This document shows positions 10,191-22,874 of a DNA stretch of 64,000 bases, piece by piece. Position numbers and translations under genes: made by a program. This DNA is from Cellulosimicrobium sp. Marseille-Q4280 (lineage in GTDB: Bacteria; Actinomycetota; Actinomycetes; Actinomycetales; Cellulomonadaceae), in contig NZ_CALPBY010000001.1 of the NCBI RefSeq assembly GCF_943181405.1, positions 744,001 to 808,000 on the forward strand, written 5' to 3'. The notes under the pieces are model-generated. The model was not told where the DNA came from. It did no database searches and saw nothing but the letters and a program-made list of their open reading frames with translations. Position 1 is the first letter of the stretch. Each line of letters opens with the position of its first letter.

Positions 10191-10298
10191 CGGACGAGGT
10201 GAGGGTGGGCGCGCGCGACCGTGGCGGGTCTGGCGGGAGCCCGCGAGGAACGAGCGGGCGGATGGTAGGTCGCGCGCGCCCAACCCTCACCTCGTCCG
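10191..10298 (-). repeat. Structured inverted-repeat element, copy 1
   Basis: The arms 10191-10220 and 10268-10298 pair over 30 bp with a single bulged base. Read on the minus strand, the inner 14-bp helix is GGGCGCGCGCGACC with its complement. It encloses TACCATCC, a 6-bp hairpin GCCCGC/GCGGGC with loop TCGTTCCTC, and TCCCGCCAGACCCGCCAC. The unpaired parts recur almost unchanged in copy 2 (22532-22627), whereas the helices differ but remain complementary. It begins 34 bp after the hpf stop on the same strand. It may be a structured 3' untranslated RNA, a mobile miniature element or a protein-binding hairpin; I do not recognise it. Confidence 0.85.
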
Positions 10299-10332
10299 GA
10301 GGCGACTCAGGACCGCGAGGGGTCCACGAGGG

Positions 10333-10992
10333 TCAGGCGGACTTCTCGACCTTCGCCTCGGCGCAGTCGCACGACGTGTCGAGCGCGACGACGCCGTAGG
10401 TCCACCCGCGTCGGCGGTACGCGACCGACGGGCGCGCGGTCTCGACGTCGACGAAGAGGAAGAAGTCGTGGCCGACCATCTCCATCTCGTACAGCGCGTC
10501 GTCGACGGTCATGGGCTCGGCGCTGTGCAGCTTCTGCCGGATCACGACGGGCGAGTCGCCGTCGCCGAGAGGCTTCTCGACCGCCTCACCGGGCTCGGAG
10601 GGCGCCGTGGGCGCCGGTGCCGGCGGGGCGGAGTGCGTCACCGGGTCGTAGGGACGGACGTCGACGGGCGGCACGACGGTGTGGTTCCGGTGGTCCTTGC
10701 GACGGTCGCGCACGCGGCGCAGGCGCTCGGCGAGCTTCTCCATCGCGAGGTCGAGGGCGCCGAACCGGTCGTCGGCCGCTGCCTCGGCACGCACGACGGG
10801 CCCCTTCGCGCGGACCGTGAGCTCGACGCGTTCACGGACCCCGGAGAGCCTCGGGTTGTTCTCGTGGGTGACCTCGACGTCCACGCGCTGCGCCGTGGGC
10901 GCGAGCTGCTGGACCTTGGCGAGCTTGTCCTCCGCGTGCTGGCGGAACCGGTCGGCCACCTCGGTGTGCCTGCCGACGACGACGATCTCCAT
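10333..10992 (-). CDS. hpf: Ribosome hibernation promoting factor, long form
   Basis: 219 residues from ATG 10992, preceded by GGAGG; an upstream in-frame GTG extension lacks such support. HPF binds the 30S decoding region and, in the long form, pairs 70S ribosomes into inactive dimers. The N-terminal S30AE domain (MEIVVVGRHTEVADRFRQHAEDKL through about residue 100) is joined by a Pro-rich linker to a C-terminal dimerisation domain (about 155-215) with VIRQKLHSAEPMTVDDALYEMEMVGHDFFLFVD. This gene order (secA, hpf, ComF) is typical of actinobacteria. Two adjacent inverted repeats lie in its upstream region at 11051-11082. Confidence 0.96.
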   Translation of the reverse strand: MEIVVVGRHTEVADRFRQHAEDKLAKVQQLAPTAQRVDVEVTHENNPRLSGVRERVELTVRAKGPVVRAEAAADDRFGALDLAMEKLAERLRRVRDRRKDHRNHTVVPPVDVRPYDPVTHSAPPAPAPTAPSEPGEAVEKPLGDGDSPVVIRQKLHSAEPMTVDDALYEMEMVGHDFFLFVDVETARPSVAYRRRGWTYGVVALDTSCDCAEAKVEKSA

Positions 10993-11050
10993 GTGAGCCT
11001 CCACGAGGGTAGTGACGCCCGTTCCTCGAGCGTCGGTCCGGATCTGGTAG

Positions 11051-11082
11051 GGCACCAAGATCGGTGCCGGTGGTCTACCACC
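11051..11082. promoter_or_regulatory. Two adjacent small inverted repeats upstream of hpf
   Basis: GGCACC-AAGATC-GGTGCC (11051-11068) is followed without a gap by GGTGGT-CT-ACCACC (11069-11082). Both lie 60-90 bp before the hpf start, where they could be operators or leader hairpins. The remaining spacer to 11275 holds no gene I can support. Confidence 0.4.
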
Positions 11083-11275
11083 TCCTTGCGACGCCGGGGC
11101 GCCCCGCTCGGCGGGCTCGCGCGGGGACTCGGCACAGGTGTCCTGTGCGCCCGGTCCTCGCGACGACTGGCCCTCAGCCTAACCCGCGGTCCGGGGTGTC
11201 GGCAGTCTCAACGGGAGGTGAACACCGGGACCTTCGACCGTCGCCCGCGAGACCCGCGCGAGCGCGCGGAGAGGG

Positions 11276-12025
11276 TCACGGATCGCTTCGTGGTGACGGC
11301 GTGGCGGCGAGCACGAACGCCCCGAGGACGGGGATCCCGGCACGGGCGAGCGCCGTCTCGCACGCGGCGAGCGTCGCGCCGGTGGTGAGCACGTCGTCGA
11401 CCAGGAGGACCGACGGCGCGGCTCCCAGGGCGCGGCGCACCCGTGGCCCACGCGCGAGCTCCACGGCGCGGAGCCGGTCGCCGCGGGCGCGCGACCCGAG
11501 CCCTACCTGGTCTCGTGCCAGCCCCCGCTGGCCGAGGACGTGCACGGTGCGCGCCGGCGCTCCCAGCCCTGCGGCGAACGCGGCCGCGAGGCCCGCCACC
11601 GGGTCACGACCGCGCGTCCGGCGTGCGGCCCTGCTCGTGGGTGCGGCCGCGACGAGGACCGGTCCGGAGGCGAGGACCGGGCGCAGGCGCTCGCCCGCGC
11701 GCCGGGCCGCCGCGCGGAGCGGCGCGTCGAGGTCTGCACGACCGCGGTCCTTCCACGCCACGACGACGTCGCGCAGCCCGCCCGCGTAGCCGGCGAGCGC
11801 CCAGACCGGGAGCGGGTCGACGTCGTCGAGCCGGTCGAGGCGTGGCGCGGTGGCCTCGCACCGCCACGGCGGGGCGTCCAGCACGGCGAGGCAGTCCGCG
11901 CACCAGCGGACGTCCGGCGTGCGGCACCCGGGGCACACCACGGGGAGCGCGAGGCGTGCGACGTCGCGCACCCCGCGCACCAGGACGGCGGGGGCGGTCC
12001 GCTCTCGGTCGGGGCGGCTGCTCAT
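11276..12025 (-). CDS. ComF-family phosphoribosyltransferase-like protein
   Basis: 249 residues from ATG 12025. Near the N-terminus a paired-cysteine zinc ribbon reads CPGC...CADC (about residues 32-47). The C-terminal half is a type I phosphoribosyltransferase fold with the PRPP-binding signature VLLVDDVLTTGATL (about 209-222). Homologues are linked to DNA uptake in naturally competent bacteria, but most actinobacterial members have no tested role. It sits between lpqB and hpf, as Rv3242c does in mycobacteria, and is 100 bp downstream of the mtrAB-lpqB operon on the same strand. Confidence 0.9.
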   Translation of the reverse strand: MSSRPDRERTAPAVLVRGVRDVARLALPVVCPGCRTPDVRWCADCLAVLDAPPWRCEATAPRLDRLDDVDPLPVWALAGYAGGLRDVVVAWKDRGRADLDAPLRAAARRAGERLRPVLASGPVLVAAAPTSRAARRTRGRDPVAGLAAAFAAGLGAPARTVHVLGQRGLARDQVGLGSRARGDRLRAVELARGPRVRRALGAAPSVLLVDDVLTTGATLAACETALARAGIPVLGAFVLAATPSPRSDP

Positions 12026-12125
12026 CGCCGCATCGTCGCTGCTCAGGCCCGTCCGCGCGCCCTCATCCCGACGCCCTGTGGACGAGCCGAGATCTGCCGG
12101 GCCTGTGGACGGCCGGGACGACGCC

Positions 12126-13853
12126 TCAGCCCGGATAGGTCGGGAGCCGCACCTCGGTCGCGACCCGCGTCCACAGCGAGGAGGACCCCGCCGCGTACAG
12201 GCTCCCGTCGCTCGTGCCGAGCAGCATCGTGCCGATGCCCGTGCCCGAGGCGAGCGAGACCGCGCCCTCGAGCGGTGACGCCTTGCTCGTCGGACCGCCC
12301 ACGGGCACGAGGTGCACCAGCGGTGCGGTGTCGCCGATCGACCGTCCGAGCACGCCCAGCGTCGTCCGGTCGACCCACACCACCTGGGTCGCCGCGACGA
12401 TCGGCTGCCCGACCCGCACCGGCTCGGAGAGCTCGGTCGGCAGGCCGTCCTCGTCCCGCAGGATCCCCGCGACGTGGACCTGGAGCCCCGTCCCCGTCGC
12501 GCTCACGACGGCGATCCGCGCGCCGTCGGGCGCGACCCGGAGGGACATGACGGTCCGGCCGTCGAGCCACGGCGCGGCCACCTCCGAGACGGTTCCCTCG
12601 AGGTCGGCGACCCGGAGCGACCCCGGCTGCTCCTGCGGCCCGCTCCACACGAGGCCGAAGCGGTCGACGCTCGGCGCGAGGAGGTTCTCGCCGTCCATGA
12701 GGAGGACGGACTCGGTGTCCGCCGTGGGTGCCGTCACGAGCCGGCGAGACCCGTCGCGCACGACGAACGTCGCGTCGGACGACGACCCGGTGAACGCCAG
12801 CGCGGTCGGCTGCAGGCCCGTGAGCGGGGCGACGGTCTCCACGGGCTGGGTGGACCGGCCGACGATGCTCGTCACCTGGTCGCCTGCGAGGACGACGGGG
12901 TCGTTCGGGGTGGTCGCCGGCCGCGCCGTGGTCTCGTCCACGGCGGCGAGGGGCACCCCTTCGACCGTGATCTGCACCTCGCGCGGCGAGGGGTTCCCCA
13001 GCGACGCCCCGAGCTGGGCCACGAGCACGGCGCGGTCTTCCGCAGAGGTCCCGGACACGGCGTCCGTGAGCGGCACCTCGACGGGGCCGGCCGGGGCCGC
13101 GGTCACCGAGTCGATGCTCAACGCGGTCCCGTCGGGGACGACGGTCGTCACCGAGCCCGCGAGCCACGGGACGGGGCCGACCAGCGTCTCGCGCACCGCG
13201 AGCGTCTGCCAGTTCCGGCTCGGGAACCACCGGGCGTCGGGCACGAGGTAACGACGGTCGACCGTCGGGAAGTACAGGTCGGTCGCCCGGTACGTCTGCA
13301 CGAAGTTCGTCGCCGAGACCACGAGGCCGTCGTCCGTCGTGTCGACGCGCCACTGCCCCTCGTCGTCGCGCACGAGCCCGTACACGAGGTCGGTCGTCGT
13401 CCCGGGGACCTCCTCGGTGTACACCCCGTGGGCGTCGACGGTGCCCACGACGTCGGCGGCCGCGCGCACGGTCGCCACGCCCTCCTCGACGCGCGAGTCG
13501 TCGACCTCGAGCTCCGGCTCGGCGGCGAGCACGGCGACCTGCGCGAGCGGCGACCAGGTCGTGGCGGTCTCCGGCGTGAGGAACTGCGTGGCCACGTCGA
13601 ACGAGCCGGACGCGCCCTGGGCCTGCGCCGCGAGGAAGCCCCGCACGATCTGCTCGGGCAGCGCGTCCTCGCGCGGGGCGTCGGCGCGCACGAAGACCGG
13701 GCCGCGCTGGGACAGGACCGTCTCGCCGTCCATCACCGGACCCGACGTCGGGATGGACGCGCACGCCGCGACGGGTCCGACCACGAGCGCCGCGGCGAGG
13801 GCCGCGAGCGCCGCGCGCAGCGGCCTGCGCCGCGCGACCCGGGTCCCGCTCAT
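12126..13853 (-). CDS. lpqB: Lipoprotein LpqB, MtrAB accessory
   Basis: 575 residues from ATG 13853, overlapping the mtrB stop by four bases. A twin-Arg-like basic start and hydrophobic stretch end in the lipobox VAAC (about residue 27), giving a membrane-anchored lipoprotein. A GerMN-like domain lies near residues 50-220 and a beta-propeller-like region fills most of the rest. In mycobacteria LpqB interacts with the extracellular part of MtrB and affects MtrA phosphorylation and cell-wall functions (family knowledge). Operon position directly after mtrB supports the same role. Confidence 0.95.
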   Translation of the reverse strand: MSGTRVARRRPLRAALAALAAALVVGPVAACASIPTSGPVMDGETVLSQRGPVFVRADAPREDALPEQIVRGFLAAQAQGASGSFDVATQFLTPETATTWSPLAQVAVLAAEPELEVDDSRVEEGVATVRAAADVVGTVDAHGVYTEEVPGTTTDLVYGLVRDDEGQWRVDTTDDGLVVSATNFVQTYRATDLYFPTVDRRYLVPDARWFPSRNWQTLAVRETLVGPVPWLAGSVTTVVPDGTALSIDSVTAAPAGPVEVPLTDAVSGTSAEDRAVLVAQLGASLGNPSPREVQITVEGVPLAAVDETTARPATTPNDPVVLAGDQVTSIVGRSTQPVETVAPLTGLQPTALAFTGSSSDATFVVRDGSRRLVTAPTADTESVLLMDGENLLAPSVDRFGLVWSGPQEQPGSLRVADLEGTVSEVAAPWLDGRTVMSLRVAPDGARIAVVSATGTGLQVHVAGILRDEDGLPTELSEPVRVGQPIVAATQVVWVDRTTLGVLGRSIGDTAPLVHLVPVGGPTSKASPLEGAVSLASGTGIGTMLLGTSDGSLYAAGSSSLWTRVATEVRLPTYPG

Positions 13854-15706
13854 CGCCCGCCCTCCCGCACGGTGGAGCCGTGGTCTGCCGGTCCGGACGG
13901 TTCGTCCCGGCCGGTGTGCGCGGCGCGGTCGGGGAGCTCGGCAGGGCCGGGGACCGACGCCGGGAGCACCACGGGGATCCCTCCGGTGACCGACGGCAGG
14001 TCGGCGGGCCCGACGGTCCCGTCGACGTCCTCGACGACGGCGGCGTGCGCGCTCCACCCGCTGCCCAGACCCCGGTCGCCGGTCACCTCGGAGACCAGCG
14101 GGAGCGGCGAGGACTGGAGCCGGATGCCGGCACGGCGCGGCAGCGTGAGGCGGAAGCTCGCCCCGCGCGCGGGCCGTCCCCACGCCTCGAGCCAGCCGCC
14201 GTGCAGGTGGGCGTCCTCGAGCGAGATCGCGAGGCCGAGGCCGGTGCCGCCGGTCGTGCGGGCACGCGCGGGGTCGGCCCGCCAGAACCGGTCGAACACG
14301 TGCTGGACCTCGTCGGGCGTCATGCCCACGCCGTGGTCGCGCACGACCACCGCGATCGCGTGCCCGTCGCCCTGGACGGTGATCTCCACCGGCTTCTCCT
14401 CCGCGTGCTCGACCGCGTTGACGACCAGGTTGCGCACGATCCGCTCGACGCGCCGCGGGTCGACGTCGGCCGTGAGCCGCTCGTCGCCGAGGTGCACCGA
14501 GAGCCACACGCCCTTGCGCTCGGCGAGCGGTGCCGCATGGTCGACGGCGGCGCTGACGACGTCGCGCACGTCGCGGCGCTCGGCGTCGAGGACGGCCGCC
14601 CCCGCGTCGAACCGGGAGATCTCGAGGAGGTCGGCGAGGAGGTCCTCGAACCGGTCGAGCTGGGCCTGCAGGAGCTCCGTCGAGCGCCGCGAGACCGGGT
14701 CGAAGTCGTCGCGCGAGGAGTGCAGCACCTCCGACGCCATCCGGATCGTCGTGAGCGGGGTGCGCAGCTCGTGCGACACGTCGGACACGAAGCGACGCTG
14801 CAGCATCGACAGCTCCTCCATGCGCTCGATCTGCTCCTGGAGGCTGTGCGCCATCTCGTTGAACGTGCGCGCGAGCGAGGCCATCTCGTCGTGCCCCTTG
14901 ACGGGCAGCCGCTCGTCGAGGTGACCGTCGGCGAGACGCTCCGCGACCCGCGCGGCCTGACGCACCGGGACGACGGCCTGGCGCGTGACGAGCGCGGTGA
15001 TCCCGACGAGGAGGGCGAGCAGGACGAGCGCCCCGACGAGAAGGACCGACTGGAGGAAGGACAGCGTCTCCTGGTCCGCCTCGAGGTCGTAGAGGTAGTA
15101 GAGCTCGTAGGTCCCGCCGATCGGCACCTCGACCGTCGAGCCGACGACGACGCCCGGCACCACCGGCGACTCCGGGTCGCCCGGATCGCGCGGGATGGCC
15201 ACCGACTGCCGCTGCTGCCCGCCGTCCGCGGCGAGCGTCTGCTCCCGCATCTCGGGCGAGACGAGCCCGTCGAGCTGGTCGTTCGACGAGAGGTCGAGCA
15301 GCGCCCCGGACGTCTCGTCGTCCGCGCGCCACAGGAAGACCTCCCGCGACGCCGAGCCGCTGTACAGCAGCATCGAGTAGAGGTCGTACAGGAGCGACTG
15401 CGCCTCGGAGACGCTGGACGCCGGTGAGGCGTCGAGCGTGCGGCGGGCCTGCGCCGTGGACTGCGCGCTCTCGAGGTCGATCTCGGCCAGGCGGCGCTCG
15501 AACAGGCCGTCGCGCATCGAGTCCGACAGGTACGCGCCGAGGGCGGCCACCACGACGACGCCGACGACGAGCGCCGACGTGACGACCCGCAGCTGCATCG
15601 ACGAGCGCCACCGCCACACGGCGCGGCGCACAGCGGCCCGCAGCCGGAGCCGCAGCCGGGTCCACGCCCCGCGTCGCCGTGCACCCCTGCCGGCCGTCGT
15701 GCTCAC
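13850..15706 (-). CDS. mtrB: Sensor histidine kinase MtrB
   Basis: 618 residues from GTG 15706, overlapping the mtrA stop (GTGA). Two membrane segments (about residues 38-60 and 228-250) flank an extracellular sensor region of about 170 residues. A HAMP linker, then HisKA with [15 protein letters not shown] (phospho-accepting His), and an HATPase domain follow: [12 protein letters not shown] (N box), DHGVGM (G1) and [18 protein letters not shown] (G2). MtrB phosphorylates MtrA and coordinates cell division and peptidoglycan functions in actinobacteria. The C-terminal tail of about 80 residues past the kinase core is Pro/Ser-rich and probably unstructured. Confidence 0.96.
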
Positions 15707-16386
15707 GTCCGCGCCGCGCCCGCCTTGTACCCGACGCCACGGACGGTGAGCACGATCTCCGGGTTCTCCGGGTCGTGCTCGATCTTCGACCGCAGACGCT
15801 GGACGTGGACGTTGACGAGGCGCGTGTCCGCGGCGTGCCGGTAGCCCCAGACCTTCTCGAGCAGGACCTCGCGCGTGAAGACCTGCCACGGCTTGCGCGC
15901 GAGGGCGACGAGCAGGTCGAACTCGAGGGGGGTGAGCGCGATGGCCTCTCCGCCGCGCAGCACCCGGTGCCCCGTGACGTCGATCTCGACGTCGCCGATG
16001 GCGAGGTGCTCCGGCGCGGGCTCGTCCGTGCGGCGCAGGCGCGCGCGGATGCGGGCCACGAGCTCCTTGGGCTTGAAGGGCTTCGAGATGTAGTCGTCCG
16101 CGCCCGACTCGAGCCCCAGCACGACGTCGACCGTGTCGCTCTTGGCCGTGAGCATGATGACGGGCACGCCCGACTCCGCCCGGATGAGCCGGCACACCTC
16201 GGTGCCGTCCTTGCCGGGAAGCATGAGGTCGAGCAGCACGAGGTCGGGCTGCGCGTTGCGGAACGCCTCCAGCGCGAGGTCTCCGTCCGCGCAGAAGACG
16301 GGCTCGAACCCCTCCGAGCGCAGGACGATGCCGATCATCTCGGCCAGGGCGGTGTCGTCGTCGACCACGAGCACGCGAACCTTCAT
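15703..16386 (-). CDS. mtrA: Response regulator MtrA
   Basis: 227 residues from ATG 16386; an in-frame GTG 6 bp upstream is an alternative. The OmpR-family receiver has acidic residues D9-D11, the phospho-acceptor D53 in [10 protein letters not shown], and the switch lysine in [12 protein letters not shown]-terminal winged-helix domain (about residues 130-224) ends in LTVRGVGYK. MtrA is a global regulator of division and cell-wall genes that is often essential in actinobacteria. Its order with mtrB and lpqB, all coupled by 4-base overlaps, matches mycobacteria and Streptomyces exactly. Confidence 0.97.
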
Positions 16387-16456
16387 GCGCACATCTTGCC
16401 ATCGCGGGGCGTGGGTACCGGTGGGCGCGCCCCCGTCGTGGGTCGGGGGCCCGTAC

Positions 16457-16462
16457 TAGGGT
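16457..16462 (+). promoter_or_regulatory. Likely -10 of the MoxR-block operon
   Basis: TAGGGT in the divergent spacer between mtrA and the membrane-protein gene would give a leader of about 105 nt. That leader contains a direct repeat of CAGACGACG (16537 and 16548). No clear -35 is seen. Confidence 0.4.
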
Positions 16463-16575
16463 GGCCTCGCCAGCGGTGCCGTGTCGTCCCCGAGACGATC
16501 GAGCAGGACACGAGCGGACGACCGGCGAACGATGTGCAGACGACGTTCAGACGACGAGCGAGGACGACAGCCCCG

Positions 16576-17946
16576 ATGAGCACACCTGACGCCCCCGGCA
16601 CGCCGGACGGAGCGACGCCGGACGCACCGGACGCGCGAGGGGCCGCCTCCGGCTCGGACGCCACGCCCGCGCAGCCGTCCGGGTGGGGGACGCCGTCGTA
16701 CGGGCAGCCGGGATACGGCCCCGCGGCAGGTCCCGCGCCCGAACGGCCCCGGTACGGCCAGTACGGCCAGCAACCCGGCCAGCCCGAGCAGCAGCACGGA
16801 CAGGGCCAGTACGGACAGCAGGGTCAGTACGGGCAGCCGGCCCAGGGACAGCCGGCCCAGCACGGACAGCAGGGTCAGTACGGACAGCCGGCCCAGTACG
16901 GACAGCAGCAGTACGGACAGCCGGGCCAGTACGGGCAGCAGCAGTACGGGCAGGGTCAGTACGGGCAGCCCGGGTACGGCCCGCCCGCAGGGTTCGGTGG
17001 TGCCCCGTACGTCCCGCCCGCCTCGAAGCCGGGGATCGTCCCGCTGCGACCGCTGACGCTCGGCGAGATCTTCGACGGGTCGTTCGGCGCGATCCGCCAC
17101 AACCCGCGCGTCATGCTCGGCATGACGACGATCGTCGTCGTCGCCGCGACGATCGTGGGCGCGCTGATCGGCTACGCGTTCTCGGGCTACGTCGCGGACC
17201 TGTTCTTCGCCCTGCCCTCCGACGCCGGGCTCGGCGGGATGGAGTCGCAGTTCGCGACCCTCTACTCGACGCTCTTCGGGACGGGGATCACCACGGCGCT
17301 CGCGACGCCGATCGTCAGCGGCCTCCTCACCGTCTCCATCGGCCAGTCGGTCATCGGCCGCAGGGCGAGCGTCGGGGAGGTGTGGTCGCAGGTCGGGCGT
17401 CGCGCGTGGTTCCTCCTCGGGTTCACCCTGCTCCTCGGTCTGGCGTCGACCCTGCTCGTCACGGCGCTCGTGCTGCTCGCCGTCCTCGCATTCTCGGTCG
17501 ACCCGGCGCTCGGGGGCGTCTCGATCCTCCTCGCGATCCCCGCCTATCTCGTGCTCGTGGTGTGGGTCGGTGTGCGGACGGGGCTGGTGCCGCCCGCGCT
17601 CGCGCTCGAGGGGCAGCCGTTCTGGGCCACGGTCGCCCGCGTGTGGCGGCTCACGCGCGGGTCGTTCTGGCGCCTCTTCGGCATCTACCTGCTCGCCTAC
17701 GTCGCGATCTACGTCGTCACGCAGATCCTCATCACGCCGTTCAGCCTCGTCGGCGGGATCGCGCTGGGCGCCGGCCAGGTGTTCGTCGGCAACCTCGTCA
17801 TGACCCTCGGGATCGCGGTGTCGACGATCGCCCTGACCCTCTTCCTGGGCAGCGTCGTCGCCCTGCTCTACATCGACGTGCGCATGCGGCGCGAGGGCCT
17901 CGACGTCGAGCTCGCCGCGGCAGCGAGCGAGCAGCCCGCGGCATGA
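16576..17946 (+). CDS. Multi-pass membrane protein with Gln/Tyr/Gly-rich N-terminal tail
   Basis: 456 residues from ATG 16576. Residues ~30-150 are an extreme low-complexity tail of repeated YGQ and QPGQ-type units, probably disordered and cytoplasmic. Residues ~160-445 form about six membrane segments of the kind annotated as glycerophosphoryl diester phosphodiesterase membrane domain, although no phosphodiesterase catalytic domain is present. It opens an operon of five genes with 4-base overlaps. The same order (membrane protein, DUF4129, DUF4350, MoxR, DUF58) occurs at Rv3689-Rv3693 in M. tuberculosis. Biochemical role unknown. Confidence 0.88.
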
Positions 17947-18614
17947 CCCTCACCCTGCTCTCCGCCGACGTCCCGGTGGAGCCCGGCGCCGAGGAGGCCC
18001 GACGCTGGGTCGTCGAGGAGCTCGCGAGACCGGAGTACAGCACGGACCCGTCCCTGCTGGCCCGCTTCCTCGAGTGGCTGGCCGGCCTGTTCGACGGCGC
18101 CCCGGCCCTGGACCTCTCCACGCCCTGGGTGGCGCTCGTCGTCGTCGCGGTCGTCCTCCTGGTCGCGGGGATCGCGTACCGGGTCGCGGGTCCCGTCCGC
18201 CTCTCCCGGCGACGCTCCACCTCGGCGGTCGTGCTCGAGGACGACACGCGCAGCGCCACCGAGCTGCGCGCCGCGGCCGACGCCGCCGCGGCGGCAGGGG
18301 ACTGGGCGACGGCCGTGCTCGAACGGTTCCGCGCCGTCGTGCGCTCGCTCGAGGAGCGCGCGCTCCTCGAACCGCGACCGGGCCGCACGGCGTGGGAGGC
18401 GGCGCAGGCCGCGGGCGAGCGCCTGCCCGACGTCGCTGCCGACCTCGGGCGTGGCGCCCACCTCTTCGACGACGTCTGCTACGGCAAGGTGGCCGTCGGC
18501 CGCGACGCCGACACGTTCCTGCGCGAGCTCGACGCGCGAGCCACCGCCGCCCGCCCGCTCGCGCGCGCGGAGCTCGCGGCGGCCGGTGCTGCCCCGGACG
18601 GGGGTGGCGCATGA
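17943..18614 (+). CDS. DUF4129-domain membrane protein
   Basis: 223 residues from ATG 17943, overlapping the previous stop (ATGA). The N-terminus has a short helical region, one membrane segment at about residues 60-83, and a soluble C-terminal DUF4129 domain (about 105-205) with [25 protein letters not shown] and [11 protein letters not shown]4129 proteins commonly accompany MoxR ATPases and DUF58 proteins and are thought to act at the membrane in substrate or chaperone assembly; no enzyme activity is known. Equivalent to Rv3690 by position. Confidence 0.88.
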
Positions 18615-19872
18615 GCACGACGACGCCGCCACCTCCGACGACGGCCGCGGCTCCGGCCGACCCGACCCGTCTCGTGGCGACCGCGCACCTGCCGGTCGTG
18701 GGTGACGGCACCACGGGCGCCAGCCGGGCACGCCGCCGCTGGGCACGCGTCCGCTGGCCCGTCACGGTCCTCGTCGTCCTCCTGGCGCTCGCCGGTCTCT
18801 CCGCCGTCGCCCGCCCGACGACGTCGAGCACCCCGCTCGCACCCGACAACCCCGGCCCGGGCGGTGGCCGCGCCGTCGCCGAGGTGCTCCGTGATCGCGG
18901 CGTCGACGTGACGTACGTGCAGACCGTGGCCGACGCCGTCGCCGCGGCCGGCGACGACACGACGCTCCTCGTCGCGCAGAGCGACTTCCTCCTCGACGAG
19001 CAGGCCGACGCGCTCGTCGCGACCGCGGCAGACCTCGTGCTCGTCGCGCCGAACGAGTACCTCCTCTCGAGAGCGACCGGTGGAGCGGCAGAGCTCGTGT
19101 ACGACTGGCCCGACGGTTCCGTGGTGCGCGAGCCGCGGTGCGAGGACCCCGCGGCGCGTGCCGCCGGCGGGATCGGCTCGGACGGCGTCGGGTTCTCCCT
19201 GACCGGTGCGGGTGCCGGGGCGAGCACGGTCGTGTGCTTCCCGTCCCCCACCGACACGACCGCCGGGGCCTACCTCGTCCACGAGGCCGACGACCGCACC
19301 GTGCGCGCCGTGGACACCGGGTCCGTCCTGCGCAACGACACGGTGGCCGAGGAGGGGAACGCCGCGCTCGCCCTGTGGACGCTCGGTGCGGACGAGCGTC
19401 TCGTCTGGCTCGTCCCCGACCCGTTCGACACCACCCTGTCCGGCGGTGACGAGCAGCCCGCGCTCGCGCTGCCCCCGTGGACGGGGGTCGTCGCGCTCCA
19501 GCTCCTCGTCCTCGTGCTCGTCGTCGCGCTGTGGCGCGGCCGGCGGCTCGGCCCACTCGTCACCGAAGACCTCCCGGTCGTGGTGCGCGCGTCGGAGACG
19601 ACGCGGGGCCGCGGTCGGCTCTATCGCCGCGCCGGGTCCCGCGGGCACGCCGCCGCAGGACTGCGGGCGAGCGCGGCCGACCGGCTCGCCGGGCGCCTCG
19701 GCCTCCCCCGCTCCGCCGACGCGGCGTCCCTCGTCGACGCCGTCGCGCGCGCGACCGGGCGACCACCCGACCAGCTCGCCCACATCCTGTACGGACCCCC
19801 ACCCGCCGACGACGCGGCGCTGCTCGAGCTCGCGCGTCACCTTGACCAGATCGAGAGCGAGGTCTACCACTC

Positions 19873-19876
<4 letters not shown>
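18611..19876 (+). CDS. DUF4350-domain membrane protein
   Basis: 421 residues from ATG 18611, coupled to the preceding gene by four bases. A Pro/Thr-rich cytoplasmic tail precedes a membrane helix at about residues 50-70. The extracytoplasmic DUF4350 domain (about 80-300) contains PDNPGPGGGRAVAEVLRDRG, typical of this family's ThuA/GATase-like fold. A second membrane helix lies at about 300-322, followed by a cytoplasmic tail. It is a standard member of the MoxR operon (Rv3691-like). A role in envelope or metal-cofactor assembly is only inferred. Confidence 0.88.
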
Positions 19877-21084
<1,208 letters not shown>

Positions 21085-21094
21085 GGCGCTCGAC

Positions 21095-22387
21095 GTGGCC
21101 CTGACGTGGCGCGCCGTCGTGCTCGTGGCGATCGGCATCGTGCCCGTGCTGCTGTTCCCCGTGCCGGGCACGGTGCTCGTGTGGGCGCTGCTCGTCGTCG
21201 CCGTGTGCTCGGTCGACGTCGCGCTCGCCGCCTCGCCGCGGCGCGTCGCCATCGAGCGGCGCGTGCCGGGCTCGGTCCGGCTCACCGACCGCACGGCGTC
21301 GACCCTGACCCTGACCAACCTCGCACCGCGCCGACTGCGCGCGCTCGTGCGCGACGCGTGGCCGCCGTCCGCCGGGACGCAGGTCAACCGGCACGCGGTC
21401 GACCTGCCGCCCGGCGAGGCGACGCGCGCGGTGACGGTGCTGGTCCCGACGCGGCGCGGGGAGCGCGTGGCCGACCGCGTGACGATCCGCTCCTTCGGCC
21501 CGCTGCGGCTCGCGGCCCGCCAGGCATCGCTCCCGGTACCCGGGCGCCTGCGGGTCCTGCCCGAGTTCGCGTCCCGGCGCCACTTGCCGAGCCGCCTCGC
21601 ACGCCTGCGCGAGATGGACGGCCGTGCCGCCGTACAGGTGCGCGGCGAGGGCACCGAGTTCGACTCGCTGCGCGAGTACGTCATCGGCGACGACGTGCGC
21701 TCCATCGACTGGCGCGCGTCCGCGCGGGGCCGCGACATGGTGGTGCGCACCTGGCGACCCGAGCGCGACCGTCGCGTGCTGATCGTCGTCGACACCTCGC
21801 GGACGTCGGCCACGCGCCTCGGGGACGAACCTCGGCTCGACGCGAGCATCGAGGCGGCACTGCTCCTCGCGGCGCTCGCCGGACGCGCCGGCGACCGCGT
21901 CGAGCTCATCGCGTTCGACCGCACCGTCCGCGCCCGGGTCGCGGGGGCAGCGGGTCCGCGGCTCATGCCCGCGATGGCCGACGCCCTCGCGCCGCTCGAG
22001 CCCGCGCTCCTCGAGACCGACTGGCCGGGCCTCGTCGGCGCGGTGCACGAGCGGCTCTCCCAGCGGGCGCTCGTCGTGCTCCTGTCGACGCTCGACGCCG
22101 CTGCTGTCGAGACCGGTCTGCTGCCCGTCGTCGGACAGCTCACCGCGAAGCACCAGGTGGTCCTCGCCGCGGCGGGCGACCCGGAGGTCGCCGAGCTGCG
22201 CGCGGACCGGACCGGCACCACGGAGGTCTACGACGCCGCCGCCGCGGCACGCGGGGAGATCGAGCGCGCCGCCGTCACGACGGTCCTGCGGCAGCGCGGG
22301 GTCGAGGTCGTCGACGCGCTGCCCGACGAGCTCGCACCGCGGCTCGCCGACACCTACCTCGCGCTCAAGGCCGCCGGCCGCCTCTGA
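21095..22387 (+). CDS. DUF58-domain protein
   Basis: 430 residues from GTG 21095, 10 bp after moxR. Two membrane helices occupy about residues 8-45. The conserved DUF58 signature GEGTEFDSLREYVIGDDVRSID-W lies at about 182-206, followed by a von Willebrand A-like fold with VLIVVDTSRTSATR as a probable metal-ion site. DUF58 proteins are partners of MoxR ATPases. In M. tuberculosis the next gene would be the SpoIIM-like Rv3694c; here about 2 kb of extra DNA intervenes. Confidence 0.93.
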   Translation: MALTWRAVVLVAIGIVPVLLFPVPGTVLVWALLVVAVCSVDVALAASPRRVAIERRVPGSVRLTDRTASTLTLTNLAPRRLRALVRDAWPPSAGTQVNRHAVDLPPGEATRAVTVLVPTRRGERVADRVTIRSFGPLRLAARQASLPVPGRLRVLPEFASRRHLPSRLARLREMDGRAAVQVRGEGTEFDSLREYVIGDDVRSIDWRASARGRDMVVRTWRPERDRRVLIVVDTSRTSATRLGDEPRLDASIEAALLLAALAGRAGDRVELIAFDRTVRARVAGAAGPRLMPAMADALAPLEPALLETDWPGLVGAVHERLSQRALVVLLSTLDAAAVETGLLPVVGQLTAKHQVVLAAAGDPEVAELRADRTGTTEVYDAAAAARGEIERAAVTTVLRQRGVEVVDALPDELAPRLADTYLALKAAGRL

Positions 22388-22402
22388 CGTCGCCGCCCGC
22401 AG

Positions 22403-22507
22403 CGCGAAGTGGTACCCCGGTCGCGCGAAGTAGTACCCCGGTCGCGCGAAGTAGTACCCCGGTCGCGCGAAGTAGTACCGCGGTCGCGCGAAGTAGTACC
22501 GCGGTCA
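22403..22507 (+). repeat. Left array: five 21-bp direct repeats
   Basis: Units start at 22403, 22424, 22445, 22466 and 22487, exactly 21 bp apart. The shared core is CGCGAAGTAGTACC, ending CCGGTCG or GCGGTCG; unit 1 has GTGGTACC. The units are contiguous with no spacers. Twenty-one bp is two helical turns, so a bound protein would see every unit on one DNA face. Confidence 0.92.
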
Positions 22508-22531
22508 GGCCCGACGGCGAGTGGTCGCCCT

Positions 22532-22627
22532 GGGAGTCGGGGGGGTGGGCGCCGCGTCTACCATCCGCCGCTCGTTCCTCGCGGCTCCCGCCAGACCCAC
22601 CACGACGCGGCGCCCCCCGCCCCTCCC
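22532..22627 (+). repeat. Structured inverted-repeat element, copy 2
   Basis: The perfect 12-bp helix GGGCGCCGCGTC (22547-22558) pairs with GACGCGGCGCCC (22604-22615). It encloses TACCATCC, a 5-bp hairpin GCCGC/GCGGC with loop TCGTTCCTC (22567-22585), and TCCCGCCAGACCCACCAC (22586-22603). Weaker G/C-rich outer pairing runs to 22532 and 22627. Compared with copy 1 (10191-10298), one base of 35 differs in the unpaired segments. Both helices have changed in sequence and length on both sides together. It lies 144 bp after the DUF58 stop, on the same strand. Confidence 0.88.
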
Positions 22628-22688
22628 GGCATCGTCTCGCCCTGGCCATCGCTCGCCCGGCGCTGTCACGCTTCAGCGGCACCGGACC

Positions 22689-22848
22689 GGGGTACTACTT
22701 CGCGAGACCACGGGTCTCCCTCGCACACCGGTACTACTTCGCCTGACTGCGGTACTACCTCGCGCTACGGGGTACTACCTCGCGGTACCGGGGTGCTACT
22801 TCGCGGGACCACGGGTGCTACCTCGCGCTACCGGGGTACTCCCCGGCG
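22689..22848 (-). repeat. Right array: about eight degenerate inverted repeats
   Basis: The reverse complement of the left-array core, GGTACTACTTCGCG, recurs with variation at 22691, 22713 (degenerate), 22730, 22751, 22771, 22792, 22814 and 22835 (degenerate). Spacing is 17-22 bp, mostly 20-22. The array therefore faces the left one across about 180 bp. Confidence 0.85.
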
Positions 22849-22874
22849 GTCGGGGCCGCGTCGGTGCCACGGGG

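Follow-up and report, generated by a model that had tools for sequence, protein, structure and literature searches.

The window analysed here, a 64,000-nucleotide stretch of the genome of Cellulosimicrobium sp. Marseille-Q4280 (RefSeq assembly GCF_943181405.1, contig NZ_CALPBY010000001.1, positions 744,001 to 808,000), contains two copies of a long hairpin repeat, which belong to an undescribed family of DNA hairpins in actinomycetes. Each copy lies behind the stop codon of an open reading frame (ORF) on the same strand. The hairpins and these neighbours are as follows (window coordinates):

10191 to 10298, minus strand: copy 1, whole hairpin, with an outer stem of about 30 bp and one bulge (10191-10220 with 10268-10298)
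10230 to 10267, minus strand: core of copy 1, with TACCATCC, a 6-bp inner helix, the apical loop TCGTTCCTC and the start of the C-rich 3' segment
22532 to 22627, plus strand: copy 2, whole hairpin, with a perfect 12-bp stem (22547-22558 with 22604-22615)
22559 to 22603, plus strand: core of copy 2, with TACCATCC, a 5-bp inner helix, the apical loop TCGTTCCTC and the 3' segment TCCCGCCAGACCCACCAC
10333 to 11058, minus strand: ORF upstream of copy 1, presumably of the HPF/ribosome hibernation type, its stop codon 34 nt ahead of the hairpin
21095 to 22387, plus strand: ORF upstream of copy 2, which we take to be of the DUF58 type, its stop codon 144 nt ahead of the hairpin

A preliminary description of the window, made from its letters alone, had placed both hairpins at these positions and on these strands, with nearly identical unpaired segments between diverged but perfectly paired helices. 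Our analysis bears this out. The loop pattern occurs twice in the window against 0.00 expected in 100 window shuffles, the 3' segments differ by the G/A substitution already reported, and the helices are those described, with outer arms of 14 bp in copy 1 (10207-10220 and 10268-10281) and 12 bp in copy 2, and inner helices of GCCCGC/GCGGGC and GCCGC/GCGGC, respectively. Only the extent of the outer helix of copy 1 had been underestimated: the stem continues for about 16 bp beyond the 14-bp helix, with one bulged base, to reach 10191 and 10298. The C-rich 3' segment of this copy extends to 10221. Folding z-scores on the strand originally read are -9.7 for copy 1 and -4.2 for copy 2.

The two hairpins are members of a large family. 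An exact-loop pattern recovered 18 copies in the whole home genome (the genome to which the window belongs), with none in the reversed control. A covariance model (R1), an approach proposed in the preliminary description, was built from these 18 copies, whose loop invariance is thus by construction; it returned 47 copies in the home genome at E ≤ 0.01, among them copy 1 (C1:754198-754290) and copy 2 (C1:766537-766626). At E ≤ 0.001, a search of 39 genomes including the home genome found 12 to 83 copies in each of the 17 genomes of the same genus and no match in the 22 genomes of other genera. One of these 22 (G035) was matched once by a second, core-only model (R2, built from 43 diverse copies), so R1 misses some diverged copies. 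With R2, matches were obtained in 20 of 396 genomes of the order, representing 10 of 110 genera, a patchy distribution in which copy counts are lower bounds owing to strict filters and a maximum of 14 scored candidates per genome. In a phylum-wide sample, the only match among 396 genomes was the home genome itself. A pattern scan of named genomes gave at least 112 stretches, the genera listed being Cellulosimicrobium, Actinomyces, Luteimicrobium, Oerskovia and Isoptericola.

A known RNA family was ruled out, in agreement with the initial impression, by the lack of any match to the element in Rfam release 15: the scan of the window gave no match at the gathering threshold, and eight loci searched at E ≤ 5 gave two weak matches, both in one locus (L116) and away from the element. 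Nor was the element found in titles or abstract openings among the best-ranked open-access literature searched. A phage or plasmid origin was also rejected, as a plasmid search gave no match and viral contigs contained no exact pattern match. A partial, 64-base element (L219:3-66) does lie at the extreme end of a human faecal contig of 7.7 kb (MT837112.1), unannotated and filed as phage, in which the covariance model found no match.

The members of the family combine near-invariant loops with stems that vary freely as long as they pair. In 159 distinct copies, collected with a loop search that tolerated mismatches, the unpaired segments follow the consensus TACCATCC, TCGT[T/C]CCTC and TCCCGCCAGnCCC[G/A]CCAC. 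Three positions are free to vary; other departures are few, chiefly an additional base close to the 3' end of the final segment in about 17 copies. The inner helices of these copies are mostly 5, 6 or 7 bp long. The outer helix could be measured in 126 of 167 copies, where its median length is 20 bp and 1969 of 2033 interior stem cells are Watson-Crick pairs. In the 18 home copies, 25 of the 28 pairs have changed on both sides and 90.1% of cells are paired, compared with a mean of 65.0% in shuffles and 38-51% when the structure is slid; the covariation score is 0.577, versus 0.152 in shuffles and at most 0.134 in slid structures, and none of 500 shuffles reaches the observed values. The core alone, in 43 sequences, is 91.7% paired with a covariation score of 0.376 versus 0.115 in shuffles, although two of five measures (two-sided pairs and further pair types) do not exceed the shuffles, partly because the fixed 7-bp inner helix misfits copies with 5 or 6 bp. 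At one orthologous convergent locus (L035, L068, L083), the pairing has changed in step. The covariation is thus far beyond chance, and of the original proposal of selection on a folded RNA or single-stranded DNA (ssDNA) what stands is that selection, or a repair of pairing, keeps a folded single strand, the choice between RNA and ssDNA having rightly been left open.

Minimum-energy folding was applied to 123 of the 159 copies (those with equal inner arms and distinct stems). On the C-rich strand, 75 of them take up a clean architecture of three loops; on the other strand, where the G-rich loops mispair, none does. These folds, together with the sense bias reported below, favour the C-rich strand as the folding strand. 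Wobble pairs were not relied on for this choice, since among independent wobble-type events C.A (20) alone carries the excess (A.C 6, G.T 5, T.G 2).

The position of the element relative to genes is biased. Genes were called with our own gene finder trained on the window. Among the 33 non-genic copies of the home genome with both neighbours, 15 are sense-tandem, 11 convergent, 7 antisense-tandem and none divergent, while 11 of the 47 copies lie within genes and 3 at contig ends. In 15 other genomes, 31 non-genic copies comprise 12 sense-tandem, 14 convergent, 4 antisense-tandem and 1 divergent, with 10 more copies within genes (40 loci were fetched, of which L289, L290 and L320 gave no placement). 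The pooled ratios are 25:1 for convergent versus divergent gaps (p = 8e-7) and 27:11 for sense versus antisense (p = 0.014), p-values that assume independent copies and are indicative, the copies being partly orthologous. The hairpin often starts 10-150 nt past a stop codon. At seven orthologous intergenic sites empty of the element, inverted repeats were searched for in one genome per site, and five of the seven hold another one, with arms of 20-31 nt:

L327: arm of 31 nt, 97%
L333: arm of 25 nt, 84%
L345: arm of 25 nt, 100%
L207 (C. marinum): arm of 23 nt, 96%
L075: arm of 20 nt, 95%

The hairpins at L327:106-177, L345:119-173 and L207:2333-2391 have a common outer CCGAAC(A/C)C start and perhaps represent a second family of 3'-end hairpins. 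In the window, hairpins with a net length of at least 12 bp and loops below 30 nt are absent from all 12 divergent gaps and present in 2 of 4 convergent and 1 of 14 tandem ones, a distribution that makes them look like terminators. The location of our element behind genes, and the other long inverted repeats at five of the seven empty sites, likewise make it likely that it functions as a terminator at the 3' ends of genes.

The rut sites of Rho-dependent terminators are C-rich, G-poor unpaired RNA regions past stop codons, degenerate in sequence. As a transcript, the element would share these traits, with 19 C and 4 G among the 35 consensus loop bases and a preference for sense positions 3' of stop codons, and such loops could load Rho; they differ from rut sites in being near-invariant and displayed on a hairpin.

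The preliminary description had missed that the element is dispersed, that it also lies within protein genes in either orientation, and that its sites are found filled, empty or scarred in relatives. In-gene copies occupy linkers or tails, and several frames on both strands are read. Pfam domains flank the insertion on both sides in all four proteins scanned (DnaE2, LigD, biotin carboxylase and thioredoxin-NHL). In the dnaE2 linker, aligned in 16 of the 17 genomes (G012, locus L245, was left out), two inverted copies are present in the home genome and in C. marinum and none in nine relatives; four genomes have a scar in which an arm is partly retained, and a copy peculiar to C. terreum lies at a shifted place. 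In ligD, the home-genome copy is opposite in orientation to those of other species and two genomes carry scars. Actinomyces ruminicola and A. bovis have a common in-gene copy in opposite orientations. When 10 sites were probed in nine close genomes, with 20 of the places fetched for inspection, 5 proved to be polymorphic, filled in some genomes and short in others; the element is cleanly absent, for example, at the L126 site and between genes which we take to be nrdE and nrdF.

The preliminary description had also missed a larger composite around copy 2, in which the hairpin stands in the middle between two arrays of a 21-nt unit, repeated head-to-tail and inverted about it:

22402 to 22506, plus strand: five 21-nt units (GCGCGAAGTAGTACCnCGGTC) in an array directed at copy 2, four units by a stricter motif
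22685 to 22849 (approximate limits), minus strand: inverted, degenerate array of the unit GCGCGAAGTAGTACCnCGGTC beyond copy 2, three units by the stricter motif

In relatives, many cores are flanked by such arrays at the loci listed, pointing inwards with variable spacers, and a few loci have stray units elsewhere. The identical 94.5-bit scores of many array-flanked cores in several genomes, and the near-identity in core and stem of the 20 array-flanked copies fetched, suggest a recent spread of this class. A second form of the element, with a short closing helix and an asymmetric internal loop followed by a long stem, was found in Actinomyces, in part of Luteimicrobium and Cellulosimicrobium, and in Isoptericola. 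Locus L075 also contains, near 980-1473, a remnant with the stem module of this form (GTGCTCGGGC / CCCTTCGCATCC) whose apical part differs, which gives the impression that stem and core can be exchanged as modules.

Some further arrangements were observed. Genome G091 has three head-to-tail copies in one convergent gap (L303, also L268), and in two genomes of family f3 (L293 and L297, Pfam for L293) the element is located between dnaA and dnaN. Genes that we read as winged-helix genes follow both window copies, which we attribute to coincidence, this pattern being absent among the neighbours of copies in other genomes. In the assembly of C. cellulans MP1 many contigs start at a copy (L108, L121, L141, L158, L162, L184, L185), and the element seems to break assemblies. 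Records titled Sphaerisporangium cinnabarinum ATCC 31213 (L112, L135, L140, L190, L213) match contigs of G011, a genome that groups with Cellulosimicrobium, and look mislabelled.

The closest known kinds of sequence are repetitive extragenic palindromic (REP) sequences, miniature inverted-repeat transposable elements (MITEs) and Rickettsia palindromic elements (RPEs). REPs are dispersed, mostly intergenic palindromes whose folded ssDNA is recognised partly via loop or bulge bases (PMC8266576). They measure 20-50 nt, with a tetranucleotide ahead, most often GTAG, and are tied to the Y1 transposase TnpA-REP (RAYT). Our element is similarly a dispersed and mostly intergenic palindrome, but it measures about 90-110 nt, and the GTAG of its reverse strand is not directly 5' of the foot but in an internal loop that follows the inner helix on its 3' side. 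A REP with a Y1 transposase was ruled out, as the Y1_Tnp domain (PF01797) is absent from all 17 genomes of the genus. RPEs are palindromes of about 150 bp inserted in-frame in unrelated genes (PMC10969869). The element is likewise inserted in-frame in unrelated protein genes (11 of 47 home copies); it differs from RPEs in phylum and sequence, and whereas RPEs encode a conserved peptide, it is read in several frames and on both strands. MITEs, such as SPRITE and ERIC, are short non-autonomous repeats, SPRITE being terminator-like (PMC10969869). Filled and empty orthologous sites, as expected of MITEs, do occur (5 of 10 sites, and dnaE2), but the identity of the element resides in its unpaired loops and not in terminal repeats, no parent transposon was found among the neighbouring proteins scanned, and flanks too diverged or scarred allowed no target duplication to be read.

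We think, with moderate confidence, that the family represents a dispersed palindromic element of Actinomycetales that is likely mobile, is predicted to form a long hairpin with three near-invariant C-rich unpaired segments and likely ends transcription behind genes. Such a mobile palindromic element best accounts for the identity of loops across families, the patchy occurrence, the in-gene positions and the filled and empty sites. The in-gene copies in either orientation and the filled, empty or scarred sites argue for a palindromic repeat of the REP, MITE or RPE type and against an ordinary RNA gene. An enzyme or other protein acting in trans would recognise the strand in its folded state, be it ssDNA or RNA, via the loops, which could explain why the loops stay identical and the stems need only pair. 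After insertion 3' of a gene, the element would take on the function of a terminator hairpin and be exchangeable with the long hairpins of most empty sites; its loops, rich in C and poor in G, would also be suited to loading Rho. Within ORFs it would be tolerated, ribosomes covering the hairpin and the frames used there being open. It is tempting to go further and to imagine a mobile nucleic acid whose loops alone give it its identity, in which an enzyme reads the three C-rich segments, the stems are rebuilt at each site and a portable terminator is swapped with bacterial 3'-end hairpins; this bolder proposal is tentative.

Several observations weigh against the mobile, transcription-ending element that we favour. 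Neither window copy is followed by a T-run, as an intrinsic (U-tract) terminator would be, and the gap holds no inverted repeat at two of the seven empty sites, one between genes presumed to be yebC and ruvC (L339) and the other (L069) with another copy of the element retained close by. The 11 antisense-tandem copies and the in-gene copies of either orientation need no sense RNA, and wobble pairs of the C-rich strand are rarer (7 events) than those of the other strand (26; p = 0.0013). Regarding mobility, vertical conservation is the rule: in 317 orthologous flank pairs from the fetched loci, a set biased towards filled sites, the core is kept in 291, reversed in 10 and absent in 16. No target-site duplication was read, the flanks being too diverged or scarred for one to be read. 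No mobilising enzyme was found either by the Y1_Tnp search, in which PF01797 was detected in 0 of the 17 same-genus genomes, in 1 of 39 overall (G038, itself without R1 match) and in 5 of 14 control rings, or among neighbouring proteins. A shared neighbour gene as mobiliser was rejected after 101 of 148 listed proteins (60-900 aa only) were scanned, as no family was common to more than three among the best 25 of 164 families, whole gene catalogues not being searched.

Alternatively, the hairpin could be a cis-acting structured RNA, a 3'-untranslated-region or terminator module with Rho or a specific RNA-binding protein as its ligand, which spread by ordinary duplication under host selection and has no mobility. 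The sense preference, the near-absence from divergent gaps, the clean fold on the C-rich strand only, the pairing changed in step at the orthologous convergent locus and the other inverted repeats at five of seven empty sites would all suit such a module. We nevertheless consider it rather unlikely, given the copies of both orientations within genes such as dnaE2 and ligD, the patchy spread over 10 of 110 genera and the scarcity of G-U pairs (8 of 2033 cells when the C-rich strand is read), which we judge, with no control measured, to be low for an RNA helix. Less probable still is a REP-type ssDNA signal without any role in transcription, at which an undetected structure-specific nuclease, HUH-like or of another kind, would cut and join the strand. 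The almost purely Watson-Crick stems would agree with it, as would the occurrence of both orientations in genes, the inverted pair in dnaE2 and the tandem triplet, but no Y1 transposase was found in the 17 genomes of the genus, and while purifying selection alone could give the 3'-end position, the other hairpins at empty sites suggest use. Finally, template-switch correction of imperfect palindromes during replication yields paired changes without selection, and deletions within the palindrome are seen as scars, yet an old functionless repeat whose arms are kept complementary in this way is very improbable, as it explains neither the 25:1 position bias nor the near-identical loops across families, which already suggest conservation beyond neutral expectation.

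In the palindromic repeats known from bacteria, recognition goes by foot motifs or terminal repeats, and a transposase is often associated. By contrast, the conserved information of the element described here resides in its loops, and the stems are free to vary. With information borne by the loops and no known mobiliser found, an undiscovered recogniser should therefore exist. The filled, empty and scarred sites make the element a natural experiment on the turnover of 3'-end hairpins and protein linkers in high-GC actinomycetes.

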